The notes beneath the pieces are model-generated. The model had not been told where the DNA came from, ran no database searches, and saw only the letters and a list, made by a program, of their open reading frames with translations. A stretch of 64,000 nt of DNA, from contig CADAFP010000008.1 of the NCBI GenBank assembly GCA_902787185.1, forward strand, positions 1-64,000, read 5' to 3'. Source of the DNA: an uncultured Bacteroidales bacterium (GTDB lineage Bacteria; Bacteroidota; Bacteroidia; Bacteroidales; Muribaculaceae). How positions within the stretch are numbered: the first letter of the stretch is position 1; each line of letters starts with the position of its first letter. Of this stretch, positions 12,732-36,544 are shown piece by piece. The translations under genes were made by a program, and so were the position numbers.

Positions 12732-12785
12732 CTTTACATCTTTTGTCTTTGACTTGCACTAATTGTAGTGAAAAACAATATGAAT

Positions 12786-12817: not shown

Positions 12818-12843
12818 TAGCGAAAAACTAAATTGAAAGGAAT

Positions 12844-13422: not shown

Positions 13423-13436
13423 GCGGCGGAGCCGCT

Positions 13437-13460
13437 GATTAGAGATTAGTGATTAGTGAG
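13437..13460. repeat. GATTAG/GATTAGTGA array
   Basis: GATTAGAGATTAGTGATTAG is made of three GATTAG units directly after the MarC stop. The same unit on the opposite strand (TCACTAATCACTAATC) appears at 47634-47664. Confidence 0.5.
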
Positions 13461-13503
13461 AGTATCAGACCATAACTGCTGCTTTACAGGACACAGATAA
13501 AAA

Positions 13504-13574
13504 GAAAACAATAAGTACAATAAATACAAATATCTGATTTGCAACAGATTGTATTTATTGTACTTCTTGTTTTC
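13504..13574. repeat. 71-bp palindrome, copy E
   Basis: Left arm GAAAACAATAAGTACAATAA, right arm TTATTGTACTTCTTGTTTTC. It lies between the convergent MarC and GHL10 genes. It lacks the CAACGATGGAATAA left flank found at B, C and D. Confidence 0.85.
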
Positions 13575-17764: not shown

Positions 17765-18805
17765 TCAGTCGGTAGTCATAGAAGAGCGGCGCAAACTCCA
17801 GCCCTCATGGAAAAACGGTTCTTGAGCCGTGAAGCGTGGTGCCCAGGTCTTGAGCAGCCATATCACGGGCCACTCAATCAGCATGGTCAAGCAGAACACC
17901 AGCAACGACAGGCGTGCGCCAGGTGCCATCCCATAGTGAACAAACAAGAAGCGCAAGGGCTCATATATCATCGTGTGAGTGCCCAGGATGATGAGCGAAT
18001 AACGGCCGTAATGACATAAGACAGGGATGTGCGGCAATGGCTTGCAAGCCCAGAACAGGGCCATAATCGCCACAAAAGGCAACAGGTAGAGTTTCCAATA
18101 GACTGGCAAAGCCTGGATGAGCAGATGGATGTTCTCGCTCAACAGATAAATGGGCAAGGCCACCAGCAACAGAGCCACAATTCCCCATCGGTCATATCGA
18201 CAGGGCCGCAATGCCCCCAAACGGTTCACTTCATGCCCCAGGATGAAGTAAGGTATCGCCACAAGTGAGGTATCGAGCATCAAGGGCAAGAGCACATGAT
18301 AAATGCCACACAGATAGCCGATGACCGACAGCAGCAGCGCCACCAGGCAAATGAGCCACAAGGACTTGAGCCACCGCTGCATGGCATAGTAGATGACATT
18401 GCACCAGAACAGGCTCAACAGGAACCAGATGGGCGTGGTCATATCCCAATAGCGCATGAAGAAAGGCTCTACCAGATGAATCGGCGAAATGTCAATGGAT
18501 TCTGCACCCACGGCCCACCGCACCGTCCATTCGGCCAACCTGAGGCCGTAGGCCAATACGATAAAAAAACAAAACGGCACAAGGATGTTATTCACCTTGC
18601 GCCGCGTGAAATCGGCAAAGCCTCCATATCGCTTAAAGAAAATGCCCGATATGAAGTAATACATGGGCAGACGGAATGCCTGCAACGCGTTGTTCAGATT
18701 GGGCAGTATATGGTTAAAAAATTCATGGTCAATGTGATACATCACGATAAGCATGATGCACATACATTTCATGAAGTCAATAAAGGCGATGCGCTGACGG
18801 CTCAT
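17765..18805 (-). CDS. Membrane O-acyltransferase (acyltransferase 3 family)
   Basis: 346-residue polytopic protein with about ten hydrophobic segments. The N-terminus IAFIDFMKCMCIMLIVMYHIDHEF carries the acyltransferase-3 hallmark (FIDxxK then H about 20 residues on). Such enzymes move acetyl or other acyl groups across the membrane onto surface glycans. It is placed 31 bases after a dedicated carrier protein gene and a FkbH gene, so it is a candidate to transfer the carrier-built acyl group. Substrate inferred only from context. Confidence 0.85.
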   Translation of the reverse strand: MSRQRIAFIDFMKCMCIMLIVMYHIDHEFFNHILPNLNNALQAFRLPMYYFISGIFFKRYGGFADFTRRKVNNILVPFCFFIVLAYGLRLAEWTVRWAVGAESIDISPIHLVEPFFMRYWDMTTPIWFLLSLFWCNVIYYAMQRWLKSLWLICLVALLLSVIGYLCGIYHVLLPLMLDTSLVAIPYFILGHEVNRLGALRPCRYDRWGIVALLLVALPIYLLSENIHLLIQALPVYWKLYLLPFVAIMALFWACKPLPHIPVLCHYGRYSLIILGTHTMIYEPLRFLFVHYGMAPGARLSLLVFCLTMLIEWPVIWLLKTWAPRFTAQEPFFHEGWSLRRSSMTTD

Positions 18806-18836: not shown

Positions 18837-19061
18837 TCACATTTTGGACTTGACCATGTCCACCACGCGAGTGAAATCGGTCATCTCGGCAATCTCCTCG
18901 GGTTCCAACTCGATGTCGAAGAATTCTTCCAGCTCCGATGCCAGCATGAGGTGATGCAACGAGTCCCAGCGCTCACAGTTCTTCTGTGACGCATCGGTAT
19001 TCACCTCGTCCATCTCAAAGACCCTGCGCATGATATCTAAAACGTTTTCTTCCAAACTCAT
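18837..19061 (-). CDS. Dedicated acyl carrier protein (FkbH partner)
   Basis: 74 residues; carrier-protein fold with the phosphopantetheine serine at residue 34 in RWDSLHHLML. It is clearly distinct from AcpP. Its start overlaps the end of the FkbH gene by four bases, the arrangement seen where FkbH-like proteins load a glyceryl group from 1,3-bisphosphoglycerate onto a stand-alone carrier. Expected role is to hold that C3 unit for transfer or condensation. Confidence 0.88.
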   Translation of the reverse strand: MSLEENVLDIMRRVFEMDEVNTDASQKNCERWDSLHHLMLASELEEFFDIELEPEEIAEMTDFTRVVDMVKSKM

Positions 19062-20650
19062 AACACTCTAATATTATAGCAATTCTTTATTTCAAAAACA
19101 TCACTGATGGGCATCCTGTAATGCTTAGAGCCATCTTCATCGGTCGCCTCACAGGTCATCCCCAGACGGTCATAGAAGTCCGCCGTTTGACCATTCTTGG
19201 CAGTGGGCAGATAGTCTGCCGTGAGTTCCCTATAGCCATCCAGACGCAGGAGATTGAGCACCGTCTTAACAAAAGCATCCTCGATGCCCTTGCCCAGAAT
19301 GCGGCAACTGAGCAGCAGCGTGTCGATGTTGACACCGTTTTCTCCCGCAGGCTCCAGAAAGACCGTACCCGTGATGCCACTGTCACCAAAGCGGTCACTC
19401 ACCCTCATGCAATAAACGAGCCAACCGTCATCCAGACGCTGCTGCACCTCGGCTTGGGTATAGCGGCGCGTGGTGAGGTTAAACTGGTTGGTCTTCTGCG
19501 TCATCTGAGCGATGCGCTGCATGTTATGCTCATCGGCAGGCAGGACATCTATCTGGATGTCAAGGCTATACAGGTACTCGTCCAGGTCGGCAAAGCGCGA
19601 TTGCTCGGCCCGACGCAAGGCATTGGCTTGATATTGCTCAGCCTTTGACAAGTCCTCACTGGTCACCGTGTAAATGCGGAAATAATCATCCACCAAACGC
19701 TTGAAGAAGGGCATGAGCTGATAGGGTTTATCAGGGAACTCAGGCACCTCGACTTGCGGCAGCAGCTGCTTGACCAACTCGCGCTCTGAAGGGTTATCAT
19801 CAATAAACACCATGCTGTCCAAACCGATGTTCAACTCTTCGGCAAGGGCATTGATATTGGTTGCCTTGTCGTTCCAGTTGATGCGCATGGCGCTGAAGTG
19901 TTCCCGCTTGAGCACCATGAAGGGGTTCTTGTCCCATGCTTCCTGGACATCGGTCTCGTTATTCTTGCTGCACAGGGCCAGAATAACACCTGTGCGCGAC
20001 AACTGCAAGAGGGTCTCCTGCCATTGCGTATAAGCCCTGCCGGGATAATCGCCGCCCAACTTGATGCCATCGATGCCATCCTCGCCGAGCACCCCACCCC
20101 AAAGGGTGTTATCGAGATCCAAAATCAGGCACTTTTTGCGCATGAGGGCATGCTCCTCCTCTACCCTTCTCCACCATAGGCTAAAGTCATTTTTGAGTTT
20201 GGGATTGAGCAGCGTCTGTGACATGAGATAGTACTTCCAGTCAATGAGCGTGGCACTGTCATAGCGGCAAACAAATTCATCAAAATCCACCCACTTGACA
20301 TGGTCGTGCTGAGCGGCAAGGTTCACGGCATGGCGGTTGAAATCGACAATCGCGTCTTCCACCTCATGTTCGCAGCCCGTCAGCCTCATGGGGAACAGAT
20401 TGACAAGTGAGAAAATGACGAAAGGCTTTGATGCACTTGCCGCACCCATCACCAGGTCCAACTGGTCCCTATAGGAGTTGATTTCCTGTGCCAGCCGAGT
20501 GGCATCGGCAACGGGCGGCACCTGATAAAACCAGATATAGCGATCCACCTCATCGGGCACCTGACTGATATCACCATAACCCGAATAGGTCATGCCGTCA
20601 TAGCCCAAGAAGGGTTCAACCGTTTGATTGCGAAAGACAAAAGTCGTCAT
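19058..20650 (-). CDS. FkbH-like HAD-family glyceryl-carrier synthase
   Basis: 530 residues. A central HAD domain of subclass IIIC carries DLDNTLWGG at 178-186, with LCSKNNE and FIDDNPSERE as the following motifs; the N-terminal 160 residues resemble the extended FkbH N-terminus and the C-terminal part (about 340-530) is a GNAT-like domain (TRRYTQAEVQ, FGDSGITGTV). Characterised relatives dephosphorylate 1,3-bisphosphoglycerate while transferring the glyceryl group to an acyl carrier protein. The ATG at 20650 is preferred over 20683 because it sits four bases past the upstream stop. The adjacent carrier protein supports the role. Confidence 0.88.
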   Translation of the reverse strand: MTTFVFRNQTVEPFLGYDGMTYSGYGDISQVPDEVDRYIWFYQVPPVADATRLAQEINSYRDQLDLVMGAASASKPFVIFSLVNLFPMRLTGCEHEVEDAIVDFNRHAVNLAAQHDHVKWVDFDEFVCRYDSATLIDWKYYLMSQTLLNPKLKNDFSLWWRRVEEEHALMRKKCLILDLDNTLWGGVLGEDGIDGIKLGGDYPGRAYTQWQETLLQLSRTGVILALCSKNNETDVQEAWDKNPFMVLKREHFSAMRINWNDKATNINALAEELNIGLDSMVFIDDNPSERELVKQLLPQVEVPEFPDKPYQLMPFFKRLVDDYFRIYTVTSEDLSKAEQYQANALRRAEQSRFADLDEYLYSLDIQIDVLPADEHNMQRIAQMTQKTNQFNLTTRRYTQAEVQQRLDDGWLVYCMRVSDRFGDSGITGTVFLEPAGENGVNIDTLLLSCRILGKGIEDAFVKTVLNLLRLDGYRELTADYLPTAKNGQTADFYDRLGMTCEATDEDGSKHYRMPISDVFEIKNCYNIRVL

Positions 20651-20654
20651 GTCG

Positions 20655-21665
20655 TTATTTCTTGATCTTGCGATAGATTCCACTTAATGTTTTCCAAAGA
20701 CCCGGATGCATCATCAGGCGATGAATCACCATCCACTTCTTGCCAAAATAGTTGGCCTCGGGCCCGATGCACGGGAAGGGGTACAATCCCGCCTGACGGA
20801 TGCGTTGCAGCACCTCATCGACACAGGCGCTCGTCAACGCCTTGGTCATCGAGAAATAGAGATACACATTCCTCAATCCAGCCACACTGGCGGGAGCCGT
20901 GTCGCCTGACTGCGATTCGTACCGATTGATGGTCCCGTTGATTGACGCAGCGGCATCCACCTGGCTGAAAATGCGCCGTTTCACGTGGTCGGCATCAGGG
21001 TTATGCATCGCGCTGTCGCCACGGTTCACATAGCAATAACCCAGGATATCCTGATGAGCCACCCGCGCAGCCGCAAGCATGAACTGGGCAATAAAAGCGC
21101 CGTCCTCACAGGCGATGAGCGACGTGTCAAAGCGCAGTGCAAGGCGCTCTATCAACTCACGGCGCACCATATAGCGCCAAACGTAGGGACTCATCACATG
21201 CTGCTGCAAATAACCGACTCCCGTCGCCACTGGCGAGGTGGCATACTTGTCACGGCTGACGCCGCCACCGTCGGTACCATCGGGCATCACACGGCTGAAG
21301 TTGTACACCAGCACATCGAGGTCATCGGCCACCACGCGGTCGAGCAGAATGGCCGCGGCACCGTCTCCCAGATAGTCGTCACTGTCCACAAAGGCGACAT
21401 ACTGCCCTCGCGCATTGTCCAATGCCAAATTGCGGGCAGCACTCACACCGGTATTCTGCTGGACGAGAAGCCGCACCTGGGGGTAATCCCGTGCAAAGCG
21501 CTCGACAACAGCGCTGCTGCCGTCGGTAGAGCCGTCATCAACGACCAGCACCTCACAGTCATCGGCTGCAACAGGCTGGTCAATAATAGACTGCAAACAC
21601 CTCGGCAATAATGCCGCGGTGTTGTAAACAGGGACGATATATGTCAGTAATGGTTCACCCATCAC
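20655..21665 (-). CDS. Glycosyltransferase family 2
   Basis: 336 residues, cytoplasmic GT-A fold. Nucleotide-sugar-binding motifs LTYIVPVYN (8-16), VVDDGSTDGS and the metal motif FVDSDDYLG are visible, and the C-terminal region ends in a basic, amphipathic stretch typical of membrane-associated members. The start overlaps the VOC gene stop by four bases. Acceptor and donor are unknown. Two adjacent Met codons leave the first residue uncertain. Confidence 0.88.
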   Translation of the reverse strand: MMGEPLLTYIVPVYNTAALLPRCLQSIIDQPVAADDCEVLVVDDGSTDGSSAVVERFARDYPQVRLLVQQNTGVSAARNLALDNARGQYVAFVDSDDYLGDGAAAILLDRVVADDLDVLVYNFSRVMPDGTDGGGVSRDKYATSPVATGVGYLQQHVMSPYVWRYMVRRELIERLALRFDTSLIACEDGAFIAQFMLAAARVAHQDILGYCYVNRGDSAMHNPDADHVKRRIFSQVDAAASINGTINRYESQSGDTAPASVAGLRNVYLYFSMTKALTSACVDEVLQRIRQAGLYPFPCIGPEANYFGKKWMVIHRLMMHPGLWKTLSGIYRKIKK

Positions 21666-22063
21666 TCCTCGACGAGTTCAATCAGACCCGTATGTTTTTG
21701 GAACAGGAATGCCACCCGTTTGTCTCCCATCGCGCATGCGGGAACAGGTCCGCTGACCAGCAAAAACCGCTGTTGCCGCAAGCCGCCGATTGCGGCATCG
21801 ATGTCCTTGACCTGATAACATAAGTGATAAGGCGCCACCCCAACGTTATCCAGGGTGCGCTGTACCGGGCTTTGCTCATCAAGCGGGGCCAGCAGCTCGA
21901 CGCGTGGGGCACCCTCCTTGTCGAGGAAGCACACCTTGACGTGCTGCAAGGGGTCTTCCACCACATCGGCAGGCGTATAGCCCATATTGATATAGAACTC
22001 CTTGGTCTTGTGGATATCACGACAAGCGATACCAATATGGTGAAAGAGCAATCCGGAACTCAT
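21662..22063 (-). CDS. VOC (glyoxalase/epimerase-fold) protein
   Basis: 133 residues from the ATG at 22063, which follows the ketosynthase stop by a few bases with GAGAGTG as a ribosome-binding site; a longer frame to 22129 would overlap that gene. The fold follows methylmalonyl-CoA epimerase: FHHIGIACRD with metal His at 8-9, Glu56, His80 in PYHLCYQV and Glu129 near IELVE. In this setting between a FabH-like ketosynthase and FkbH it may epimerise or isomerise a carrier- or CoA-bound acyl intermediate; that is inference. Confidence 0.8.
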   Translation of the reverse strand: MSSGLLFHHIGIACRDIHKTKEFYINMGYTPADVVEDPLQHVKVCFLDKEGAPRVELLAPLDEQSPVQRTLDNVGVAPYHLCYQVKDIDAAIGGLRQQRFLLVSGPVPACAMGDKRVAFLFQKHTGLIELVEE

Positions 22064-22068
22064 CACTC

Positions 22069-23118
22069 TCAATATTCGATGACAGGAGAAACTCGGCAGT
22101 CGAGGGTGTGCAACAGTGCTGAGCCCCAACTCAAGCCAGCGCCAAAAGCACTGAGCACCACGGTGTGAGAACCCTCTAATTTGCCATTAAGTTCACTGGA
22201 AATGGTGAGAGGCACCGAGGCGCTGCTCGTGTTGCCATACTTGTTAATGCAGAAAGGCACGCGTTCGGGCGCGATTTTCAATTTCTTTACAAAGAAGTCC
22301 ATCATGAAACGATTGGCCTGATGGAAGACGAGATAGTCCACATCGTCGATGGTCTCACCCGTCTCGGCAAGCAACTGTTTCACGCTACGGGGCACCTTGC
22401 TGATGGCAAAATTGAAGACATCCATGCCATCCATGAACACTTCGAGGTCGGTGCGCACATTTCCGTCCTCACGCTCCCGCTCAACGCAGGAATCGGGCGT
22501 GATGGGATTGCGCATTCCAGCATGAATCTTGAGTTTATCCTCACCGCTGCCGTCGGTATAGAGCAGGAATGTCGATGGACCAAAATCGCCCTTCTCGACC
22601 AGCGTCGCCGTTCCCGCGTCGCCATATAGGGGCCAGTCCACCTTATCGCGGCGGTTGACAATCTTGGAGAATGTCTCGCCATCGAGGAGCAGCACGCGGT
22701 TCACCCCAGGAATTGAGGCATAGGCAAACGCGGTGCTCAAGGCATACAGATAGCCTGAGCAGCCCAGCGTGATGTCCATGCACATGGTCTCTTTGGGAAG
22801 TCCCAACCGCTGCTGCAACAGGCAGGATGTGGCAGGGATGCGGTAATCGGCGGTCTGGCTCATAAACAGCAGCACGTCGATGCTCTTTGGGTCAATATCA
22901 TTATCAGCCATGAGCTGTTGTGCGGCCTTGAAGCACAAATCGCTGGCCATGACATCGGGGGCAGCGATGCGGCGCTGCTCGATACCGATGTTGTCAATCA
23001 CCTTATCTATTTCTTCTTCAGGAATGAGATAACCCAGATCCTTGTTATATACAACCTCTTGAGGCACACAAGCACTCAAGGCCTTAATTCCCACTCCTTG
23101 AAATGTTATCTTGGCCAT
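22069..23118 (-). CDS. FabH-like ketoacyl synthase III, first copy
   Basis: 349 residues, thiolase fold. Catalytic Cys120 in DITLGCSGYLYALS, His266 in VFHQANRF and Asn296 in KYGNTSSASVP give an intact KAS III triad. It differs from housekeeping FabH in context and in the upstream half, and belongs with the carrier protein 130 bases upstream. Such enzymes either start a condensation with malonyl-carrier or act as acyl esterases/transferases in tailoring clusters. A second paralogue lies at 26654-27715. Two possible roles remain open: C-C bond formation or acyl transfer. Confidence 0.88.
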   Translation of the reverse strand: MAKITFQGVGIKALSACVPQEVVYNKDLGYLIPEEEIDKVIDNIGIEQRRIAAPDVMASDLCFKAAQQLMADNDIDPKSIDVLLFMSQTADYRIPATSCLLQQRLGLPKETMCMDITLGCSGYLYALSTAFAYASIPGVNRVLLLDGETFSKIVNRRDKVDWPLYGDAGTATLVEKGDFGPSTFLLYTDGSGEDKLKIHAGMRNPITPDSCVEREREDGNVRTDLEVFMDGMDVFNFAISKVPRSVKQLLAETGETIDDVDYLVFHQANRFMMDFFVKKLKIAPERVPFCINKYGNTSSASVPLTISSELNGKLEGSHTVVLSAFGAGLSWGSALLHTLDCRVSPVIEY

Positions 23119-23249
23119 AACAAATGCTAAGAGAAACCTAAAAAACAGGATTTAAGTTTCAACTGATTTTTTGAAGTAAAAAAACAAGAAACAGTCACCC
23201 TGATAAACTAAAAGCTCATGCGGGGACCTGCTTGGAGAAACGACGATTA

Positions 23250-23492
23250 TTATTCCTCTTCTTCAATTCTCGCGGTGACAATGTTGTAAAGGTCCTCGAC
23301 AGTCTTGCTGCCGCGGATGTCATCGCCGCGAAACTCCACGTCATATTCCTCGTCAACCATCGCTATCACCGACAGGGCGAGTAACGATGACCATTCGTCC
23401 AGTTCCTTGAAAGAGGTGCTGGCATTTATAGTGTCGGGGGATGTCTCATCAAACAGTCCCGCAAAATTCTCTATGAATTGGTCTAAATTCAT
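23250..23492 (-). CDS. Dedicated acyl carrier protein
   Basis: 80 residues with the prosthetic-group serine at residue 36 in DEWSSLLAL. It is closely similar to the carrier at 29422-29655 (FIENFA, FKELDEWSSL, IAMVDEEYDV), so the two are paralogues. A -7 box lies 47 bases upstream, making it the first gene of a sub-operon with KAS III, VOC, glycosyltransferase, FkbH, carrier and acyltransferase genes. Expected partner is the ketosynthase next to it. Confidence 0.88.
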   Translation of the reverse strand: MNLDQFIENFAGLFDETSPDTINASTSFKELDEWSSLLALSVIAMVDEEYDVEFRGDDIRGSKTVEDLYNIVTARIEEEE

Positions 23493-23538
23493 TATCTTCC
23501 TTTATAACGCAAAAAGGGCGCTATTATTACACGAGGCG

Positions 23539-23546
23539 CAAAATTA
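23539..23546 (-). promoter_or_regulatory. Internal promoter before the ACP/KAS III sub-operon
   Basis: The minus strand reads TAATTTTG, an exact -7 match, 47 bases before the carrier protein start. A clear -33 TTTG is not seen. Together with the 165-base gap upstream it suggests independent expression of the downstream genes. Confidence 0.55.
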
Positions 23547-23609
23547 ATTATTTTTTTTTAATTCGTGCCATTTTGTTAAATTTCACATGCAGATTTCATG
23601 CTTTTTTAT

Positions 23610-23640
23610 CCAAAAAAAGTGGTTAAAATCCACATGTGGA
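23610..23640 (-). terminator. Weak terminator-like hairpin after NeuD gene
   Basis: On the minus strand GTGG-ATTTTAA-CCAC is followed by seven T, and a perfect TCCACATGTGGA palindrome overlaps its start. The stem is only four to five bp, so termination may be partial. Confidence 0.35.
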
Positions 23641-23657
23641 CGCCATTTCTACTGGTT

Positions 23658-24299
23658 TTAATAGTCAAATCGGAGAGCAGGCACACCCAGATAGGTGCTG
23701 TTATCTTTGGGTAGCGTCATGAGTACGCTATTGGCGCCGAGGGTAACCCCGTTGCCTATGGTCATGCCCTGCAGGACCACGCTGGCGACGCCGAGCAGGT
23801 TGTTGTCACCAATCGTGATGCCACCTGACAAGTGTGCCCCAGGCATGAGACCATTAAAGTCTCCGATGATGTTATCGTGACCAATTACGACATGGTCATT
23901 GATGAGATTGAAGCTACCCAATGTCACATCACAAGATATCATGCAGTGGTTCTGGATGATATTCCCCTCACCGATGGTAAATGTCTTGGGGTCAACAAGG
24001 AACAAAGACGGATCAATGAGGTTGGGGAAAGTGATATTAGGATTGGTGATGCTCTCGCGGATGCGGCGCACAGCCTTGTTCTCGTTGATGGCGATAGCCA
24101 CAGCCAGGGGCTCGTCCACGCTCAAGAGCGTGTCCATGTCACCCAGGACAGTGCCGTAACGCGAGATGTGGGAGTCGGTACTCTTGCTGTCGTCAAAGAA
24201 CCCGATCAGTTCCCAGTCCCCGCCATTGCGGTTGATGCGCTCGATGAGGCATGCCACCTCCTTGCCAAAGCCACCCGCACCATATATTGCGATTTTCAT
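23658..24299 (-). CDS. NeuD-family sugar O/N-acyltransferase
   Basis: 213 residues. An N-terminal Rossmann-type domain (IAIYGAGGFGKEVA, 3-16) is followed by a left-handed beta-helix of hexapeptide repeats (about 110-200, e.g. IIGDFNGLMPGAHLSGG and IGDNNLLGVASVV). Family members acetylate amino sugars of nucleotide-activated precursors, as PglD does. It is very similar to the second half of the double protein at 30526-31779. Immediately downstream of a DegT aminotransferase gene, which would provide the amino group to be acylated. Confidence 0.88.
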   Translation of the reverse strand: MKIAIYGAGGFGKEVACLIERINRNGGDWELIGFFDDSKSTDSHISRYGTVLGDMDTLLSVDEPLAVAIAINENKAVRRIRESITNPNITFPNLIDPSLFLVDPKTFTIGEGNIIQNHCMISCDVTLGSFNLINDHVVIGHDNIIGDFNGLMPGAHLSGGITIGDNNLLGVASVVLQGMTIGNGVTLGANSVLMTLPKDNSTYLGVPALRFDY

Positions 24300-24343
24300 A
24301 ATATTGCTGTTTATCGTTACTACATTCTACCTTGCGGTCCAAC

Positions 24344-25486
24344 TCATTTCTTGCAGCAAGAGATGATTTCACGAGCCACACGCTCCACGTCATCGTCGCT
24401 CACCCAAGGGCCGCTGGGCAGGCACAGACCCATACCAAACAGTTCCTCGCTCACGCCGTTGACATAGGCAGGCGCTCCCGAGAACACGGGTTGGGTGTGC
24501 ATGGGCTTCCACAAGGGGCGGGACTCGATGTTGCAGCTCTCAAGATGAAGGCGCACCGTCTCGTAGTCCACTCCGGTCTTGGCAGGGTCTATCAGGATGG
24601 TATTGAGCCAGTAGTTGCTGTCGGAGCGCTCGTCGGCATTGGTGTGAACGGTAATGCCGTCCACGTCGGCAAACAACTCCACATAGCGGTCACACAGGTG
24701 CTTGTGGTGAGCAAGATGCTCATCGAGCACGGTCATTTGGCCACGGCCAATGCCTGCACAAATGTTGCTCATGCGGTAGTTGTAGCCGATTTCCTTGTGC
24801 AGGTAATATGGCATGGGCTCACGGGATTGCGTGGCGTAGAACATGACCTTCTTCTTGGCCTCCTCATCAGGGCAGATGAGCGCGCCGCCACCGCTGGTGG
24901 TAATCATCTTATTGCCGTTGAAGCTCATGATGCCGTAATCGCCAAAGGTGCCGCACAACTGGCCGCGGTAACGTGAACCGAAGGCCTCGGCAGAATCCTC
25001 GACCACAGGAATCTCATAACGACGAGCCACTTCCATGATGTCATCAATCTTGGCTGGCATTCCATAGAGATAGACGGGGATAATTGCCTTGGGCTTGCGG
25101 CCGGTCTTGGCGATGCGGTCCTTGATGGCATCCTCGAGCAGGTTGGGGTCGATATTCCAAGTGTCGCGCTCGCTATCGACAAACACGGGGACACCTCCCT
25201 GATAGGTAACAGGATTGGCACTGGCCGAGAATGTCATCGACTGGCAGATGACCTCGTCGTCGCGACCGACGCCCAACTTGACCAATGCGAGGTGGATGGC
25301 TGCCGTTCCTGAACTGAGCACGACGACCTTTTTGCCCTCGCCGCAGAGGCGTTCCAAGTCCTCTTCAAAGGCATTGACGTTAGGTCCCAGAGGCACAACC
25401 CAGTTGGTGTCAAAGGCCTCTTGGATATACTTCATTTCTTGTCCGCTCATGTGAGCGAGGCAAAGCAGAACTCTCTTGTTTTCCAT
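24344..25486 (-). CDS. DegT/DnrJ/EryC1/StrS sugar aminotransferase
   Basis: 380 residues, PLP-dependent transaminase installing an amino group on a keto-nucleotide sugar. SSGTAAIHLAL (58-68), VVEDSAEAFGSRY and the PLP lysine Lys193 in SFNGNKMITTSGGG match the PglE/GDP-perosamine-synthase group. Full length. It pairs with the NeuD gene 44 bases downstream, the classic aminotransferase-acyltransferase order for making an N-acylated amino sugar. Precursor sugar unknown. Confidence 0.93.
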   Translation of the reverse strand: MENKRVLLCLAHMSGQEMKYIQEAFDTNWVVPLGPNVNAFEEDLERLCGEGKKVVVLSSGTAAIHLALVKLGVGRDDEVICQSMTFSASANPVTYQGGVPVFVDSERDTWNIDPNLLEDAIKDRIAKTGRKPKAIIPVYLYGMPAKIDDIMEVARRYEIPVVEDSAEAFGSRYRGQLCGTFGDYGIMSFNGNKMITTSGGGALICPDEEAKKKVMFYATQSREPMPYYLHKEIGYNYRMSNICAGIGRGQMTVLDEHLAHHKHLCDRYVELFADVDGITVHTNADERSDSNYWLNTILIDPAKTGVDYETVRLHLESCNIESRPLWKPMHTQPVFSGAPAYVNGVSEELFGMGLCLPSGPWVSDDDVERVAREIISCCKK

Positions 25487-25532
25487 ATTATATCGTTTTT
25501 GTTAGTTTCAAAATTAATTCATGCGGTGCATG

Positions 25533-26636
25533 TTACTGCACGTGCAAGTAATAGACCGAATCCTTGGGGAAAATCTTTTTGTTTCCCTGGATTTTGCTGC
25601 ATTGTGCTTGAGTGGCACGCATAACCACCTCGTCGAGGCAGTCACCGAACATGGGTCCTGCCATCATTTGCGGACCCTCGACGCTTGGAGCCAGGTTGAA
25701 CTCGATGAACAACGGCTCTCCATCGGGCAGCACGGTCACATCCCACCCCACATAGTCGAAATAGGGCAGACGCTTGTGCATCGCGATTAAGGTGTCTATC
25801 ACCCGTTGGTAATTGGGAATGACCAGATGCTCCACGCCTGTTTCCTGCTTGAGGGACGAGACGTTCATATTCTTGAAGCGGAATACCCTGTCATCGACAA
25901 CGCCGTCATGGTCGATGACACACGTGCCACCTCCCTGCGAGACGTTGTCCTTGATGGCGCCCTTGCCGCCAAAGCGCAGGTGAGCATAGGGATACAGGTA
26001 TTCATAGCTACCGTCAATGTGACGGTAAGTGTAAAGGCGCATGGAATTGAGCGACGTGGGGTTGACCTGACTCAAGGCGGGGTGCTGTTTCACCTTCTCC
26101 TGCACGATGAAGTTGAAGGCATACTGGCGGAACAGTTCCCTGATGGCATCAGCGCCAAAGTCACGTATCTGCTCAACGCCCTCGCCGTTGCAGGTCTCGA
26201 CGGTGGGCTTAATCATCAGTTCACCGCTGGCATCAACCACAGCGTCCACCGCTTGCTCCATTGTAACCTGCTCCCCATCAATGTAATACAAGCCATGCAT
26301 ATTCTTGACGATAGCCCGAGGCTGCTTGACCTGCGGGAACAACTCGCTGTAGATATTCTTGTCGAGATAGGCATCCTTGAAGTCATAGCGGTTGAGGGCG
26401 GGTATCACAAAGAAATAGTACACGTCCATCGACAGGTAGCGGTCGCTGTGAATGCCGTTCAAGCGGGAGAAATAGTCGTCGAACATCATCGACACCTTGA
26501 AGCCACGGGACTCGTAATAAGGCGAAAGTTCCTTCTTGTGAGCTTTGTAGTCGAAGTCCTCGGCCATCACATGCGACTTGAAATACCAGTCACCCCAGAA
26601 GAATTCCTTGTTAGTATTGATATATTGTTGTGCCAT
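25533..26636 (-). CDS. ATP-grasp protein of the sugar-transfer-associated type
   Basis: 367 residues. ATP-grasp signatures include MIKPTVETCNGEGV (about 140-155), FIVQEKVKQHP, GWDVTVLPDGEPLFIEFNLAPS near the C-terminus. It resembles the sugar-transfer-associated ATP-grasp family (PF14397 type) found in polysaccharide loci. Such enzymes ligate a carboxylate to an amine or alcohol with ATP. The ATG at 26636 has AGGATC eight bases upstream; the alternative ATG at 26654 overlaps the upstream stop as TAATG and adds six residues. Substrate unknown; candidate to join an amino acid or the acyl group to the sugar. Confidence 0.8.
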   Translation of the reverse strand: MAQQYINTNKEFFWGDWYFKSHVMAEDFDYKAHKKELSPYYESRGFKVSMMFDDYFSRLNGIHSDRYLSMDVYYFFVIPALNRYDFKDAYLDKNIYSELFPQVKQPRAIVKNMHGLYYIDGEQVTMEQAVDAVVDASGELMIKPTVETCNGEGVEQIRDFGADAIRELFRQYAFNFIVQEKVKQHPALSQVNPTSLNSMRLYTYRHIDGSYEYLYPYAHLRFGGKGAIKDNVSQGGGTCVIDHDGVVDDRVFRFKNMNVSSLKQETGVEHLVIPNYQRVIDTLIAMHKRLPYFDYVGWDVTVLPDGEPLFIEFNLAPSVEGPQMMAGPMFGDCLDEVVMRATQAQCSKIQGNKKIFPKDSVYYLHVQ

Positions 26637-26653
26637 AAGGGATCCTGAGCTCA

Positions 26654-27715
26654 TTAATAGGTAATCACGTCGGTCATCTTCAAGTCACCGGCATAGAACT
26701 CCATGCTTGCCCAAGCCAATCCCACACCGAAACCACAAGCGATGCAATGCTTCATGTCGCCTGACAACTGCTCACGGCAGCGTGACACCATAGTCAAGGG
26801 GATTGAGGCGCTGGTGACATTGCCGTATTCCTCCAGGCAATAAGGTGTCTTCTCGGCAGGAATCTTGATGGCCTTGCGTATTTTCTCGTCAATAAACTTA
26901 TTGGCCTGGTGCAAAAGCAGCAAGTCAACAGTCTCGACATCAATGTTAAACGTGGCGATTAACTCCTTGATGGAACGGGGCGGCTGCTTGATGGCGAAGC
27001 CAAAAACGTCCATACCGTTAACAACCATATCCACGCCACGGCGAAAGACACCTGGTGAGACCTCTTTCTCCTCCAGGGCATCGGGGGTAACGGGATTGCG
27101 CATACCGCCGTAAGGAGCCCACACCGCATCAAAGCCTGCACCGTCAACGCCGTACATGAAATTCATGGGGCGGGCGTGTTCCGGGTCAAGTTCAAGCGCA
27201 GTGGCTGTCGCGGCGTCACCAAACAACGGTCTCACCGTCGTGTCGCGCGGGTTGCGGTTCTGGGTATTGGTTTCGGCCGCAACGAGTATCGCCCGCTTGA
27301 ACGTGCCATGTGACATGAGCGACGCCACGATGCTCATACCATAAACCCATCCAGAACAACCGAACGGCAGGTCGAACACACAACAATCGCTGCGCAACTT
27401 CAGGCGGTCCTGAAGGATGCATGCCGTTTGGGGAGCGATATAATCTCTCGAGGTGCAGACATAAGCAAAACAATCCACATCCTCAGGCTCCCACCCCATC
27501 TTCTCGAGCAAGCCTTGAACGGCCTTAACGGTAAGGTCTGACGCAGTAACGCCATTGTCCACCTTATGGTGGCGCTCGATGCCTGTCGAAGCGATGACCT
27601 TGAGGGCGTCATTCTCGTCTTTATAGATGGGAAGGCTGCGGTTGTCTTCCACTGTTGCTGGCACACAGGCACTCATGCCCGCGATGCGCACGTTGTTAAT
27701 CGTTAACTGTGACAT
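26654..27715 (-). CDS. FabH-like ketoacyl synthase III, second copy
   Basis: 353 residues with an intact triad: Cys120 in DLPFGCSGWVYGMS, His269 in LLHQANKFI and Asn299 in EEYGNVTSASIP. Similar overall to the copy at 22069-23118 (both have ACVP near residue 17, RNP[IV]TPD and GMDVF) but clearly divergent, so an old duplication. It is flanked by an AMP-ligase and an ATP-grasp gene, and two carrier proteins start the same sub-operon. Probably condenses or transfers the acyl group activated by the AMP-ligase. Confidence 0.88.
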   Translation of the reverse strand: MSQLTINNVRIAGMSACVPATVEDNRSLPIYKDENDALKVIASTGIERHHKVDNGVTASDLTVKAVQGLLEKMGWEPEDVDCFAYVCTSRDYIAPQTACILQDRLKLRSDCCVFDLPFGCSGWVYGMSIVASLMSHGTFKRAILVAAETNTQNRNPRDTTVRPLFGDAATATALELDPEHARPMNFMYGVDGAGFDAVWAPYGGMRNPVTPDALEEKEVSPGVFRRGVDMVVNGMDVFGFAIKQPPRSIKELIATFNIDVETVDLLLLHQANKFIDEKIRKAIKIPAEKTPYCLEEYGNVTSASIPLTMVSRCREQLSGDMKHCIACGFGVGLAWASMEFYAGDLKMTDVITY

Positions 27716-27719
27716 ATCG

Positions 27720-29180
27720 TTATTTGAGTTTCAATCGTTGGATTTTGCCCGAAGTGGTTCGGGGGATGCTGTCCACCCATTCCCAAAGGACGGGAATTTC
27801 ATTAGGTGGGAGCAGCTGTGTCAACTGGCGCTTGATGTCGTCAAAATCAAGCGTGCTGTCTCCTCGGACGAGGAAGGCCTTGGGAACCTCGCCCAAAACA
27901 CCGTTAGGATCTTGGGCCGCTATACAAGCGCAGTCGGGGATGCCGATCGACTTGATGGCTTGCTCGATGGTCACGGGGCTGACTTTCTCACCACCGATAT
28001 TGATGAGTTCTTTTTTTCGTCCCGTGAGGTAGAAATCACCGTTGGCGGCACGATGCCCCCAATCGCCCGTGCGGAACCATTCCCCAAAGAAGGCATCCAC
28101 GTTGTCATCAGGCAAATAGTAGGAGTGGGTCACCATATTGCCGCGCACACAGATTTCGCCATCGGTGCCGTCGGGAACGGGGGTTCCGTCCTCGTCACGC
28201 ACACACACCTCGACCAGCGGCGAGGCCGGACGGCCTACCGCATTCAGGTTGTCAATATTTTCGTGGAATTCAGCGAACAAGGCGCGGGAGGCCTCGGTGA
28301 GGCCGTAATGCATACACAATCGCGTTGTGGGGAACATCTCGATGAGGAGACGCTTATCAGACTCAGGTAATGCGGCACTACCGATCTCGATATAACGCAA
28401 CTGGTCGGCAAAACGCGCGATACGCTTACCACTCAGCCTTTTAATATACTGCCAAACGGCTGGTACCATGCCAAATCCCGTGACGTGCTCGGTCTCGATG
28501 ACTGTAAAGAACGTCTTCAGGTTTGCAAAGTTGTTGACCAGCACCAGAGTGGCACCCGCAATGAGCACGCAACGCAGACGACCGAGCCCGAAAGAATGGC
28601 TCAGCGGCAAAGCAAGCGCCTCGATATCACTTGAGCAAGTGCCGATAAACCCGTTGGTATTGCGTGCCGACCCGATGATGTTGGCATGGGAGAGCAGCAC
28701 GCCCTTGGGGGCACCTGTTGTGCCGGTCGTGAACATGACATCGGCAACAGCATCGCTGGTTAGGGCTGGGATAGCTATTTCGCCCGCTGTGGCCTCAAGC
28801 GGCACGGCATCGAGAGGGACACACCGCCGCCCCGGCACATCGAGTCCGTTGCCAAACAGGACGGCAGGCCCAGTCACCGAAATGATATAGTCTAACCTCT
28901 CACGAGGTGACGCCGAATCAGTCACCACGTTGACGACACCCAACAGGTGTGCCGCAAGGTAGAGATAGACGAACTGCGCTTCCTTCTGTGCTGATAACAA
29001 GATGCGGTCCCCCGGCTTCAGTCCCATCGACTGAAGGTAAAGAGCGGCCGCTTCGACACGGGAAATCAGTTGACTATAAGAGACACGGCACTGCCCATCG
29101 ACAAGGGCTGTCTTGTCAGGGGATTCAACCGCATTTCTCGCAATGTCACACAGCAGGGGGCTGTGGGTTGCACCTATCAT
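27720..29180 (-). CDS. AMP-forming acyl-ACP/CoA ligase
   Basis: 486 residues, class I adenylate-forming enzyme. The AMP-binding core MFTTGTTGAPKG is at 149-160, with later motifs EWFRTGDWGHR, YLTGRKKELINIGGEKVSP and the catalytic lysine Lys479 in TTSGKIQR. It activates a carboxylic acid as acyl-AMP and passes it to a thiol. The start overlaps the upstream carrier-protein stop by four bases, so a carrier rather than CoA is the likely acceptor. Lacks a fused carrier domain. Acid unknown. Confidence 0.92.
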   Translation of the reverse strand: MIGATHSPLLCDIARNAVESPDKTALVDGQCRVSYSQLISRVEAAALYLQSMGLKPGDRILLSAQKEAQFVYLYLAAHLLGVVNVVTDSASPRERLDYIISVTGPAVLFGNGLDVPGRRCVPLDAVPLEATAGEIAIPALTSDAVADVMFTTGTTGAPKGVLLSHANIIGSARNTNGFIGTCSSDIEALALPLSHSFGLGRLRCVLIAGATLVLVNNFANLKTFFTVIETEHVTGFGMVPAVWQYIKRLSGKRIARFADQLRYIEIGSAALPESDKRLLIEMFPTTRLCMHYGLTEASRALFAEFHENIDNLNAVGRPASPLVEVCVRDEDGTPVPDGTDGEICVRGNMVTHSYYLPDDNVDAFFGEWFRTGDWGHRAANGDFYLTGRKKELINIGGEKVSPVTIEQAIKSIGIPDCACIAAQDPNGVLGEVPKAFLVRGDSTLDFDDIKRQLTQLLPPNEIPVLWEWVDSIPRTTSGKIQRLKLK

Positions 29181-29404
29181 GATTTGAGTGAATTGACCTC
29201 ATCGACAATCGACTGTACCGATGTCAAGTCAAAGAGGTCCTCGAGTGGGAACTCCAATTCAAGTTCCTGTTCTATGGTACTGATAATGGCAAGGTTTCCC
29301 ACCGAGTCCCATTCGGGAATGTCACCCGATGACAACTCGTTAGTTATCAACGCCAAGTCCACATTCAAAACTCTGGCAATGATTTCCTTGACCTGTGTCT
29401 CCAT
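29177..29404 (-). CDS. Dedicated acyl carrier protein (ligase-coupled)
   Basis: 75 residues with the serine at residue 34 in EWDSVGNLAI. It is distinct from the other three cluster carriers and overlaps the AMP-ligase start by four bases, which argues for translational coupling with that enzyme. Expected to be loaded by the ligase. Confidence 0.88.
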   Translation of the reverse strand: METQVKEIIARVLNVDLALITNELSSGDIPEWDSVGNLAIISTIEQELELEFPLEDLFDLTSVQSIVDEVNSLKS

Positions 29405-29421
29405 CCTTATCTTACAGATAA

Positions 29422-29655
29422 TTACTTGTGTTTCTTTACAACAATGTTGAACAGCTCCTGAATGGTGTCTGAGTTTGTAATGTCATTACCCTTGATGATG
29501 ACATCATACTCATCGTCAACCATGGCAATGATTGACAATGCAGTGAGTGATGACCACTCATCAAGTTCCTTGAACTTAGTTTCAGCGGTAAATAAAGCCT
29601 CATCAGTATCGTCAAACTGAGCGGCAAAGTTTTCAATAAATTCCTGTATATCCAT
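29422..29655 (-). CDS. Dedicated acyl carrier protein (first of sub-operon)
   Basis: 77 residues, serine at residue 36 in DEWSSLTAL. Close paralogue of the carrier at 23250-23492. It is the first gene after a full -33/-7 promoter and is followed by a second carrier, AMP-ligase and KAS III. Having two different carriers side by side suggests two different acyl units are handled in one pathway. Confidence 0.88.
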   Translation of the reverse strand: MDIQEFIENFAAQFDDTDEALFTAETKFKELDEWSSLTALSIIAMVDDEYDVIIKGNDITNSDTIQELFNIVVKKHK

Positions 29656-29713
29656 ATATCGAGTATAACTATGCTATGTGTTGTACAACGACAATCTTAT
29701 CATATTTAGTTGG

Positions 29714-29745
29714 CAAAAGTACACACATTATTTAATTCTGCCAAA
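29714..29745 (-). promoter_or_regulatory. Strong internal promoter before the ACP/AMP-ligase sub-operon
   Basis: On the minus strand TTTG (29745-29742) is followed after exactly 20 bases by TACTTTTG (29721-29714). The first carrier gene starts 58 bases downstream. Confidence 0.75.
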
Positions 29746-29765
29746 AAATCACTCAAAAAAAACCT

Positions 29766-30518
29766 TTATATCGAGAATCCGCCATCAATTACCAAATCGT
29801 GGCCGGTAAGCCAGCTGGAAGCGTCGCTCAACAGGTAGAGCGCGCCATTGGCAATATCCTCGGGGTGACCATAGCGGCCCAGCGGGTAACGCTTGGCGTC
29901 CTCGGCGAGTTGCTCCTCGGTGATGGTGCCCCGATGGATGAGCGGGGTATCCACCATACCCGGGCAGATGCTGTTGACACGCACCTTGCGTGAAGCATAT
30001 TCGCGCGCCGCATATTTCATCACCGAGTTCAAGGCTGCCTTGGAAGCGCCATACACGCCATTACCGGGCATGAAGCTGTGAGTGCCGCCAATCGAGGCAA
30101 TCAACACAACGGACGCACCTTTGTTAAGCACTTTCTTTTTGTACATCAACCGCAGCAGCTCGATGGGCGCGAAAAAGTTGACTTCAAACATCTCGTCAAA
30201 CTTCTCGCGTGAGCCAAACTGCAGCGGCAATGTCGTCGAGTTGCCCGCACACAGCACAGCGCCGTCAAGGTGTGGCAATGCCGCCAGAAGACGTTCAAGA
30301 TCCTCTTTAACAGTCAAGTCGGCAAGGATTTGAGTCGCAGACTCATCACCCAGTTGGTCAAAAGTCTCCTGCAGGCGGTCGGCATTACGACCGGTAATCA
30401 CCAAACTGGCACCCATGCGTGCACAAGCGATAGCTGTCGCCTGGCCGAGACCCGACGAAGCTCCAGTGACCAGGATAGTCTTCCCAGCCAGTGAGAAAGG
30501 ATTATAATTGGTTTCCAT
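29766..30518 (-). CDS. Short-chain dehydrogenase/reductase
   Basis: 250 residues from the ATG at 30518, chosen because it follows the upstream stop by eight bases; a longer frame to 30575 overlaps that gene. Classical SDR: cofactor motif TGASSGLG at 18-25, Ser142, Tyr156 and Lys160 in YGASK, and the C-terminal GHDLVIDGG. Sequence style is of FabG-like 3-oxoacyl reductases or sugar dehydrogenases. Placed between the NeuD fusion and the carrier-protein sub-operon, it could reduce a carrier-bound keto group or a keto sugar. Confidence 0.9.
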   Translation of the reverse strand: METNYNPFSLAGKTILVTGASSGLGQATAIACARMGASLVITGRNADRLQETFDQLGDESATQILADLTVKEDLERLLAALPHLDGAVLCAGNSTTLPLQFGSREKFDEMFEVNFFAPIELLRLMYKKKVLNKGASVVLIASIGGTHSFMPGNGVYGASKAALNSVMKYAAREYASRKVRVNSICPGMVDTPLIHRGTITEEQLAEDAKRYPLGRYGHPEDIANGALYLLSDASSWLTGHDLVIDGGFSI

Positions 30519-30525: not shown

Positions 30526-31779
30526 TTATTCGTAATCAAACTTCTTAGCCGGCACCCCAATGTAAGTGAATCCATCCTTAGGCTTGGTCATCAACACACT
30601 ACCCGCCCCCAGGGTAACATCGTTACCGACCTTGATGCGCTGCAGAACAACGCTGTCAACACCGAACAAGTTGCAATCACCCACACCAACCGAGCCAGAC
30701 AATCTAACACCAGGCATCAGAACGTTGAAATCACCCAAGGTGACATCATGTCCAAGCACGTTTGAGCCATTCAACACATTGAAATCGCCCACATTGACAT
30801 TACAGGTCACACTGCAACTATCCTGAATGATATTGCCTTGACCAATATTGAAAGTCAATGGATCCAAAACCCTGAATGAAGGCGCGATGAGATTCGGGAA
30901 ATATATGTTCTTATTTGTGATACGCTGAAGAATCAGTCTGCGAGTCATCGGATCGCCCACAGCAATAGCAATAGCGAGTGGCTCTTCTACTGCATTGAGG
31001 TCATCCATTCCTCCCATCACATAGCCGTAATGTGATACCGGGGTGCCCACTTCCTTGTTATCATCGTAATAACCGGCAAACTCCCAGTTACCTCTACCTG
31101 CAGAATTGATGCGTTGGATGCCTCCAGCGACCTCGCGTCCCAATCCACCAGCACCATAGATGGCAATTCTCTTAGGGTAGTACCGCTGATTTTGCTCCTC
31201 ACAGGATTTGATGCGACAAGGATTCCCGTATGCCACAACCCCGTCGGGGACATCATCAACAACGACACTTCCTGCTCCGACTACCGCCCATTTGCCGATT
31301 TTCACACCTGGAATCACGACAGCAGCAGCCCCAATCCACGCACCTTCACCAATGTGAACGTTGCCACACAAAGTAGCCTGTGGAGAAATATGCACATAAT
31401 CCTCAATCACGCACTCATGATCGACAGACGCACCTGTATTTAAGATGCAATGCTTTCCCACCACTGCCCCACTTTGCACAACTGCACCTTGCATCACGAC
31501 CGAGCCAGTGCCGATGGTTGCTGTTGGTGAAACAATTGAAGAGGGGTGTATCACTGTCCCAAAATCACAAACCAGCCTTTCAACTATCTGCTTACGAGTT
31601 TTATTATTTCCAATACTAACAACAATTGGCGATTCCCCCTTCCACTCATGTGATACGGGGATTGTCATCAATTGGTTGATTGACTCATCGTCATCAAACA
31701 TCCCTTCAACATCAATATTCAATGCATTGAGGATGTCGATGATCACTTTTGCATGTCCGCTTGCTCCGTAAAGATACAT
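30526..31779 (-). CDS. Tandem double NeuD-type acyltransferase (fusion)
   Basis: 417 residues made of two complete NeuD/PglD units. The first (1-200) has LYGASGHAKVIIDIL and a hexapeptide helix ending CRIKSCE; the second (207-417) starts RIAIYGAGGLGREVAGGI and ends YIGVPAKKFDYE. The second unit is closely similar to the separate NeuD at 23658-24299, while the first is more like canonical PglD. Each has the His-containing turn (NTGASVDHECVIEDYVHISP in the first). A fused pair could acylate two positions or form internal heterotrimers. It directly follows the initiating PglC-type transferase. Confidence 0.9.
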   Translation of the reverse strand: MYLYGASGHAKVIIDILNALNIDVEGMFDDDESINQLMTIPVSHEWKGESPIVVSIGNNKTRKQIVERLVCDFGTVIHPSSIVSPTATIGTGSVVMQGAVVQSGAVVGKHCILNTGASVDHECVIEDYVHISPQATLCGNVHIGEGAWIGAAAVVIPGVKIGKWAVVGAGSVVVDDVPDGVVAYGNPCRIKSCEEQNQRYYPKRIAIYGAGGLGREVAGGIQRINSAGRGNWEFAGYYDDNKEVGTPVSHYGYVMGGMDDLNAVEEPLAIAIAVGDPMTRRLILQRITNKNIYFPNLIAPSFRVLDPLTFNIGQGNIIQDSCSVTCNVNVGDFNVLNGSNVLGHDVTLGDFNVLMPGVRLSGSVGVGDCNLFGVDSVVLQRIKVGNDVTLGAGSVLMTKPKDGFTYIGVPAKKFDYE

Positions 31780-34380: not shown

Positions 34381-34453
34381 GGCTAAACTAAAGCATCAAT
34401 CAGAACCAAAACAATTCATTCATTCCACATCAATTATAGAACATCCAAACGTC

Positions 34454-35269: not shown

Positions 35270-35327
35270 AATACCGTTAATGAAGCATCCATGTTACTTT
35301 TTGACAAGTTAGAAAAAAACCCAAAAC

Positions 35328-36541: not shown

Positions 36542-36544
36542 ATT

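Follow-up and report, generated by a model that had tools for sequence, protein, structure and literature searches.

A minus-strand gene module, probably for the synthesis of an acyl group, was analyzed within the surface-polysaccharide locus of an uncultured Bacteroidales bacterium (Muribaculaceae; assembly GCA_902787185.1). The window, i.e. the whole stretch of DNA analyzed, comprises positions 1 to 64,000 of contig CADAFP010000008.1 (64,000 nucleotides). We read the module as a dedicated type-II-fatty-acid-like side line of this locus, in which a ketosynthase (KS1) primed with a glyceryl group would give rise to a trihydroxypentanoyl-type amide on UDP-2-acetamido-4-amino-2,4,6-trideoxyglucose (UDP-QuiNAc4N), and we assign this reading a probability of about 0.5. 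The genome is a 3.2 Mb assembly of 102 contigs (81% complete). The closest KS1 in named records (93% identity, among the best 80 of 512 relatives) comes from a metagenome-assembled genome (MAG), uncultured Bacteroidales bacterium isolate RUG12777 (L055), and the nearest relatives of the source bacterium are rumen-dwelling.

The run comprises 17 co-directional genes from 32,400 down to 17,765, i.e. 16 module genes and one intervening glycosyltransferase gene. In the direction of transcription, it encodes a PglC-like transferase, a tandem fusion of two NeuD domains (NeuD2), a short-chain dehydrogenase/reductase (SDR), two acyl carrier proteins (ACPd and ACPc), an AMP-forming ligase (AMP-ligase), a second ketosynthase (KS2), and an ATP-grasp protein, followed by a DegT aminotransferase, NeuD1, a third carrier (ACPb), KS1, a VOC protein, the GT2 glycosyltransferase, an FkbH-type enzyme, the fourth carrier (ACPa), and a membrane acyltransferase. 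Family assignments are based on Pfam and NCBIfam profiles; the scan covered 40 window proteins between 16.7 and 64 kb, a part of the open reading frames there. The profiles confirmed the families proposed in an earlier reading of the letters (the sequence-only reading), and the genes that it had named were present where it had put them, all on the minus strand. The VOC start is placed nearer 22063 than 22129; the NeuD gene at 30526 proved to be a tandem fusion of two domains, which had gone unmentioned; and the co-directional run extends beyond the module as first delimited, into the PglC-like transferase gene (31786). The set expected of an N-acyl cassette, i.e. a 3-ketoacyl-ACP synthase III (KAS III), a dedicated ACP, a ketoreductase-type SDR, and a NeuD/PglD protein, was found in this one co-directional run. 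A search of relatives for the gene set, as proposed in the sequence-only reading, found the set repeated in the same order. The arrangement is therefore not due to chance, and the locus is genuine, conserved, and apparently intact.

In most named relatives, KS1 was accompanied by FkbH. The named records are the best 80 of 512 confirmed KS1 relatives (loci L055 to L134; Flavobacterium psychrophilum is not among them) and include the contigs of L031 to L038, so the two sets are not additive. Genes for FkbH and for ACPa each lay no more than 6 kb from KS1 in 75 of the 80 loci, and the FkbH match started at most 1.61 kb downstream of KS1 in 74 of the 75 loci having it. An ACPb/ACPd-type carrier was present within 6 kb in 72 loci and VOC in 67, while nine loci had FkbH without VOC. 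The FkbH domain scored 284 bits against TIGR01686, above the family threshold of 147 bits, and gave the single match in the whole genome; the sole solved relative found was 3slr (BF1531). We also surveyed a family sample of 198 genomes (KS1 relative at E ≤ 1e-60, FkbH at E ≤ 1e-30), 20 of which held a KS1 relative. In ten genomes, the window included, KS1 identity was 53% or more, and FkbH and ACPa adjoined KS1 in all ten. The other ten (identity at most 49%) showed neither gene in the sequence retrieved, which in some cases was a short contig. FkbH occurred in 16 of the 198 genomes, namely those ten and six that carry it apart from any ketosynthase match.

The 80 named loci were split by KS1 identity to the window (at least 80%, n = 34; below 80%, n = 46). 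A recurring run emerged from the 46 more distant loci, with the order (PglC)-NeuD-ACP-(KS)-SDR-KS1-VOC-FkbH-ACPa-(DegT). Of these 46 runs, 40 contain SDR and 26 a NeuD-type gene, where the absences include contig ends and proteins dissimilar to the queries. An Acyl_transf_3 gene was matched in 31 of the 34 close loci and in none of the 46 runs. Two loci, L096 and L103, display the nine genes PglC-NeuD-ACP-SDR-KS1-VOC-FkbH-ACPa-DegT, and a third, L133 (Bergeyella cardium), holds the same set with SDR relocated. Matches in these three loci are separated by fewer than 350 bases, so that the run contains one NeuD and no space for another acyltransferase. Therefore the FkbH and ketosynthase branches most simply, and probably, converge on a single acyl group. 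Another variant, in L115 (a Tannerella sp. MAG), consists of PglC-NeuD-ACP-SDR-KS1-DegT without FkbH, and next to DegT comes a protein of 671 residues that looks PglF-like. This is the form expected if its KS1 starts from a common coenzyme A (CoA) ester, i.e. a plain-starter variant. L101, a 5.3-kb contig from the cultured rumen isolate Prevotella sp. MA2016, carries the run ACP-SDR-KS1-VOC-FkbH-ACPa.

Both ketosynthases belong to the ACP_syn_III family in Pfam. In an alignment of 21 ketosynthases, the catalytic Cys, His, and Asn were kept in KS1 and KS2 alike, which bears out the two intact FabH-like enzymes of the sequence-only reading; the same alignment contains the third ketosynthase of the genome, located on contig 3 and taken as the housekeeping FabH. 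FkbH-linked and other ketosynthases differ at 17 positions.

All four carriers of the module kept the Ser within a WDS or WSS motif. They are not the housekeeping carrier, because the sole match to acyl_carrier (TIGR00517) listed for the genome lies at window positions 1505-1732. (That gene has plus-strand orientation and is separated from the glycan module by about 16 kb.) The earlier claim of four non-housekeeping carriers stands in this respect, but profile support for those at 18837 and 29422 was weak: ACPa had no Pfam match at 1e-3 and ACPd a single one under its curated cut-off, so the assignment of these two is based on weak profile matches, motif, and position. The four carriers are of two kinds. 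ACPb and ACPd are 56% identical, share the motif EWSSL, and are found near ketosynthase, SDR, or NeuD genes. ACPa and ACPc have WDS, show at most 26% identity to any other of the four (ACPb is at most 22% identical to either), and are found near FkbH and the AMP-ligase, respectively. Position and sequence suggest a starter role for ACPa and ACPc and an extender role for ACPb and ACPd.

For the sugar, the neighboring genes point to a bacillosamine-like route. DegT reached 358 bits against LegC (TIGR04181, cut-off 420), i.e. it is a close relative and not a member, with PseC as the next NCBIfam family. Its nearest solved chains are the aminotransferases 1o61 and 4ztc, which we take to be enzymes of the di-N-acetylbacillosamine (diNAcBac) pathway of Campylobacter jejuni. 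The nearest solved relatives of NeuD1 and NeuD2 are pilin-glycosylation (4m98, for NeuD1), perosamine, PglD, and VioB acetyltransferases, and that of the PglC-like protein is a diNAcBac-1-phosphate transferase (E 2e-73). Contig 9 encodes a 653-residue protein of a dehydratase family (PF02719) that resembles PglF in size and family; the genes linked to 4-amino sugar synthesis (DegT, this putative dehydratase on another contig, and the PglC-like transferase) are thus all present. Because of these resemblances, UDP-QuiNAc4N is most likely the acceptor. A legionaminic or pseudaminic acid locus was considered and rejected, as no NeuB was found among the 40 proteins scanned with Pfam; the LegC-like score of DegT therefore more likely reflects shared sugar chemistry. 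The PglE-, PglD-, and PglC-type neighbors, together with the recurring runs, also make the transfer of a carrier-bound acyl group to an amino sugar made by DegT, as proposed in the sequence-only reading, the best reading of the locus.

For the pathway as a whole, we infer substrates, step order, and product alike from sequence. The dehydratase encoded elsewhere in the genome and DegT (24344) would provide a UDP-2-acetamido-4-amino-trideoxyhexose by the bacillosamine-type route. FkbH would load glycerate from 1,3-bisphosphoglycerate onto ACPa, and VOC might invert the alpha-carbon of the glyceryl group. KS1 would then condense the glyceryl starter with malonyl on ACPb, and reduction of the 3-keto group by SDR would yield a 3,4,5-trihydroxypentanoyl-type carrier ester. 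A NeuD/PglD domain would transfer the acyl group to the 4-amino group, and the PglC-like enzyme would pass the acylated sugar to a lipid carrier. VOC is related to methylmalonyl-CoA epimerase without being a member of that family (TIGR03081, 69 bits, cut-off 115). Since VOC accompanies FkbH also where no ketosynthase was mapped (L221, L222, L223, and L229), its predicted substrate is more likely the glyceryl-carrier than the KS1 product.

The best surviving alternative, which we nevertheless consider unlikely, is that the module makes two decorations. FkbH, ACPa, and VOC would provide glyceryl-ACP for direct transfer, either to nitrogen by a NeuD domain or to oxygen by the membrane acyltransferase (17765), while KS1, KS2, SDR, ACPb, and ACPd would form a 3-hydroxybutyryl or 3,5-dihydroxyhexanoyl amide as in F. 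psychrophilum. The window encodes three NeuD domains besides the membrane acyltransferase, FkbH-ACP-MBOAT loci exist, VOC-FkbH-ACP adjoins a NeuB gene without a ketosynthase in L229, and glyceroyl as well as hydroxyacyl groups are known on QuiNAc4N (PMC10609480; here and below, published systems are described from the available parts of the papers cited). Against two decorations stand the compact runs of L096, L103, and L133, which keep FkbH despite one NeuD and no space for a second acyltransferase, and the presence of FkbH near KS1 in 75 of 80 loci.

Several observations, in turn, weigh against a glyceryl-primed KS1. We found neither a product nor a mutant for any locus with FkbH and KS1. 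Direct transfer of an unextended glyceryl group from ACP is possible: the membrane acyltransferase gene lies beside ACPa in the window, D-glyceroyl itself occurs on QuiNAc4N in Pragia fontium (PMC10609480), and FkbH, ACP, and MBOAT genes were grouped in 5 of 14 further FkbH loci (L218, L219, L221, L223, and L228; neighbors partly scanned). The count of one NeuD in L096, L103, and L133 covers the run only, and the contig of L096 measures 9.1 kb. FkbH was not found within 6 kb of KS1 in five of the 80 loci (L095, L102, L115, L132, and L134), of which L102 and L132 are on contigs that stop 578 and 1,366 bases past KS1, with a weak partial FkbH match in L132. The named loci are the top 80 of 512 relatives; near copies are frequent among them, so that the 75 loci do not amount to 75 independent events. 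On a ketosynthase tree (FastTree, 167 rows), the FkbH label required 7 changes compared with a shuffled mean of 55 (for the ligase label, 3 compared with 31), where labels were assigned by distance and near copies inflate clustering. Finally, a phylum sample of 395 genomes (ketosynthase at E ≤ 1e-55, FkbH at E ≤ 1e-30) gave a ketosynthase in 36 and FkbH in 30, but both in only five, and none of 29 more distant ketosynthase loci had FkbH in a stretch of up to 1.5 kb on each side. The five genomes are the source genome of the window (G000), G320 (on separate contigs), G394, G402, and G462; window aside, none of the phylum ketosynthase matches listed exceeded 48% identity. Since only these five genomes have both, FkbH coupling is, to judge by its distribution, a trait of close KS1 relatives, with parallels in L216 and L217, and not of the whole ketosynthase family.

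A stricter rule, that FkbH occurs only with the KS1 clade, was rejected, as FkbH adjoins distant ketosynthases (35-36% identity) in L216 (G402) and L217 (G394), where FkbH, ACP, SDR, ketosynthase, ACP, and NeuD genes are grouped. At 5436-9690, L216 also has its own 4′-phosphopantetheinyl transferase and a MaoC dehydratase-SDR fusion beside the distant ketosynthase, a further variant. In L218, FkbH is located about 6 kb from a distant ketosynthase with opposite-strand genes in between, and an MBOAT gene adjoins it. In other Bacteroidota, the sets of FkbH, ACP, and MBOAT represent a second role for FkbH at surface glycan loci, probably in O-acylation. L229 contains a row of GNAT, VOC, FkbH, ACP, and NeuB genes (6819-10769) and is a candidate locus for N-glyceroyl nonulosonic acids.

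KS2, AMP-ligase, ACPc, ACPd, and ATP-grasp (hereafter cassette B) occurred as a full set in 29 of the 34 loci whose KS1 is at least 80% identical to that of the window. Two of the 34, L077 and L078, are cut by contig ends. In L071, L082, and L090, all five genes are missing while the 10 kb upstream are present, and SDR, NeuD2, KS1, and FkbH are kept. Because its five genes come or go jointly, cassette B is a separable unit that shares SDR, and on gene content it is best described as a second, optional loading-and-condensing line, which would use a free acid as starter. Its ATP-grasp protein may have a function comparable to that of the ATP-grasp domain in Neisseria PglB2. NeuD2 (30526-31779) has 417 residues, and the two-domain fusion is also found in L031 to L034. 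Two acyl-transfer sites in one chain may serve two acyl donors.

The joint loss of cassette B also bears on a sequential build, in which KS2 and then KS1 would make one longer chain from a starter given by the ligase, and FkbH would have no part in the chain. In F. psychrophilum, the wfpC/wfpE proposal assigns two ketosynthases to a single six-carbon group (PMC6519341), and KS-SDR-KS1 runs occur in several relatives. L071, L082, and L090, which retain KS1, SDR, NeuD2, and FkbH without KS2, ligase, ACPc, ACPd, or ATP-grasp, make this explanation improbable. Still less probable is a methoxymalonyl-type extender, in which FkbH and ACPa would supply hydroxymalonyl- or methoxymalonyl-ACP to KS1: the methoxymalonyl-ACP pathway, in the available accounts, does begin with FkbH and an ACP, beside which two dehydrogenases and an O-methyltransferase are expected, but neither an O-methyltransferase nor an acyl-CoA-dehydrogenase-type partner was among the Pfam hits of the module, and the compact runs have no space for such partners. 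Weakest of all is the tetronate-like (cyclic) group of the sequence-only reading, in which KS1 would join glyceryl-ACP and a beta-ketoacyl carrier ester to a five-membered lactone on the glycan: the core of FkbH, carrier, and FabH-like enzyme is present here as in glycerate-utilisation operons (PMC7489565), but no polyketide synthase or other beta-ketoacyl supplier was found among the 40 proteins scanned (ring-modifying enzymes, an acyltransferase and a dehydratase of the Agg4/Agg5 type, were not searched for as such), and SDR and NeuD-type genes accompany KS1 in 40 and 26 of the 46 runs, so that this proposal, its partner enzymes wanting, is given up as very unlikely.

The principle of acyl groups on 4-amino sugars is already known, while the two-loader version was not found described. 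The flagellar locus of C. jejuni 11168 (cj1293-cj1342) presumably holds fabH2, several acp genes, and an activating ligase. Like the module, it has a gene with an fkbH domain (cj1302) among sugar-modifying genes, and an amino sugar there carries a 2,3-di-O-methylglyceroyl amide; it differs in that the sugar is a nonulosonic (pseudaminic) acid and that mutation ties the glyceroyl group to cj1295 and not to cj1302 (PMC7099621, PMC3068675). Strain 12664, in which cj1302 is a pseudogene, is without di-O-methylglyceroyl, and so is strain 12661, for which the available text reports no loss of cj1302 (PMC7099621, PMC3068675). The wfpC-wfpG genes of F. psychrophilum (wfp cluster accessions MK214915-MK214917) resemble the module in having two 3-ketoacyl-ACP synthases, a dedicated ACP, a ketoreductase, a PglD homologue, and a PglE/PglF route in a member of the Bacteroidota, and their authors propose from the genes that 3,5-dihydroxyhexanoyl-QuiNAc4N is synthesized; compared by description only, they differ in that the available text mentions no FkbH, AMP-ligase, VOC, ATP-grasp, or extra ACP (PMC6519341). 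In Pseudomonas syringae, the viosamine island (vioA, vioB, vioS, vioR, and acp) similarly encodes a sugar aminotransferase, a KAS III, a ketoreductase, an ACP, and an N-acyltransferase, and deletion of vioR abolishes modified viosamine; in the published part available, it has one KAS III, one ACP, and no loader, and it places 3-hydroxybutyryl on a dTDP sugar for a flagellin glycan (PMC3927599). Tetronate operons (for example, mad7, mad8, and mad16) share an FkbH-like enzyme, a standalone ACP, and a FabH-like enzyme described with glyceryl-ACP as substrate, but have a polyketide as second substrate, a tetronate ring as product, and, in the set described, no sugar enzymes (PMC7489565). In Neisseria, PglB2/GATDH combines ATP-grasp with a PglC-like transferase and is held responsible for the glyceramido group on a bacillosamine precursor; there, by description, the domains are fused, whereas the ATP-grasp protein is separate here, and the available text mentions no carrier or ketosynthase (PMC6959607, PMC11130364). 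Acyl groups on QuiNAc4N further include (S)-3-hydroxybutyryl in Plesiomonas shigelloides O1 and 3,5-dihydroxyhexanoyl in F. psychrophilum (PMC10609480), and flagellar islands of Aeromonas and enterobacteria hold ACP, reductase, and ligase genes in the accounts available. The earlier statement that no described surface-glycan system has this combination was too strong, as the loci of F. psychrophilum, P. syringae, and C. jejuni have much in common with it. A look for characterized homologous clusters thus found precedents for the principle but not for the full combination: searches of an open-access library, which lacks most subscription papers, gave no description of ketosynthase lines loaded by FkbH and by a ligase together with PglC/D/E-type genes.

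Table 1. Genes of the co-directional run, in order of position in the window
Feature	Position	Strand	Evidence
Membrane acyltransferase (Acyl_transf_3), possible O-acyl transfer step	17765..18805	-	PF01757 E 5e-21
ACPa, putative starter-type carrier beside FkbH	18837..19061	-	WDS motif; within 6 kb of KS1 in 75/80
FkbH-type glyceryl loader; HAD domain (DLDNT) between an N-terminal and a C-terminal part	19058..20683	-	TIGR01686 284 bits
GT2 glycosyltransferase, flanked by VOC and FkbH here and in the loci of at least 80% KS1 identity	20655..21665	-	PF00535 E 3e-31
VOC, methylmalonyl-CoA-epimerase-like; possible carrier-thioester alpha-epimerase	21662..22063	-	PF13669 E 2e-24; TIGR03081 69 bits
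KS1, FabH-like ketosynthase coupled to FkbH	22069..23118	-	Cys120-His266-Asn296
ACPb, putative extender/product-type carrier	23250..23492	-	WSS motif; 56% identity to ACPd
NeuD1, PglD-like N-acyltransferase	23658..24299	-	PglD_N + hexapeptide; nearest solved 4m98, then 7txp VioB
DegT sugar aminotransferase, LegC/PglE-like	24344..25486	-	DegT E 3e-91; TIGR04181 358 bits; nearest solved 1o61, 4ztc
ATP-grasp, sugar-transfer-associated family (ATPgrasp_ST), cassette B	25533..26654	-	PF14397 E 2e-27
KS2, FabH-like ketosynthase, cassette B	26654..27715	-	38% identity to KS1; Cys-His-Asn kept
AMP-forming ligase, probable ACPc loader, cassette B	27720..29180	-	PF00501 E 1e-67; PF13193; flanked by ACPc/KS2 in relatives
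ACPc, putative starter-type carrier beside ligase, cassette B	29177..29404	-	PF00550 E 5e-7; WDS motif
ACPd, putative extender/product-type carrier, cassette B	29422..29655	-	WSS motif; 56% identity to ACPb
SDR, probable 3-ketoacyl reductase	29766..30518	-	PF13561 E 5e-54; in 40/46 KS1 runs of relatives with KS1 below 80%
NeuD2, tandem fusion of two NeuD/PglD domains	30526..31779	-	two PglD_N + two hexapeptide stretches; TIGR03570 361 bits
PglC-like phosphoglycosyl transferase, would load acylated sugar on lipid carrier	31786..32400	-	diNAcBac-1-P transferase nearest, E 2e-73

Outside the module, the window contains LicD-type genes at 33553, 46114 (-46998), and 52998 (-53909) by Pfam, and similar ones by eye at 34454, 36545, and 37380. 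Amid those of 33553-38183, the genes at 35328 and 35945 appear to encode a nucleotidyltransferase and a HAD phosphatase, and the group perhaps provides a phosphocholine-type decoration. Two similar GNAT-like proteins, recognized by eye (38310-38933 and 43481-44116), lie beside GT2 genes (39056-40084 and 44236-45279) whose N-terminal parts are near-identical, which suggests a recent duplication within the locus. A cytidylyltransferase-like domain fused to a Gfo/Idh/MocA oxidoreductase is encoded at 47707-49041, and L095 reads similarly at 12238-13530.

Acyl groups on 4-amino sugars can determine serotype, and strains of F. psychrophilum whose loci are distinguished only by putative R-group genes differ in the antigenicity of their lipopolysaccharide (PMC6519341). 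We tentatively suggest, at odds just short of even, that KS1, SDR, and NeuD form an undescribed route to polyhydroxylated amides from glycolysis-derived glyceryl-ACP in many Bacteroidota, where the side chain, and with it the antigen, would depend on which loader is present (FkbH, AMP-ligase, or none). Such a modular grammar, consisting of (i) a loader with its starter carrier; (ii) a ketosynthase with its extender carrier; (iii) a reductase; and (iv) an N-acyltransferase, would allow acyl groups to be predicted from sequence for rumen and gut Bacteroidota. If true, a polyketide-type starter system would be at work in glycan assembly.

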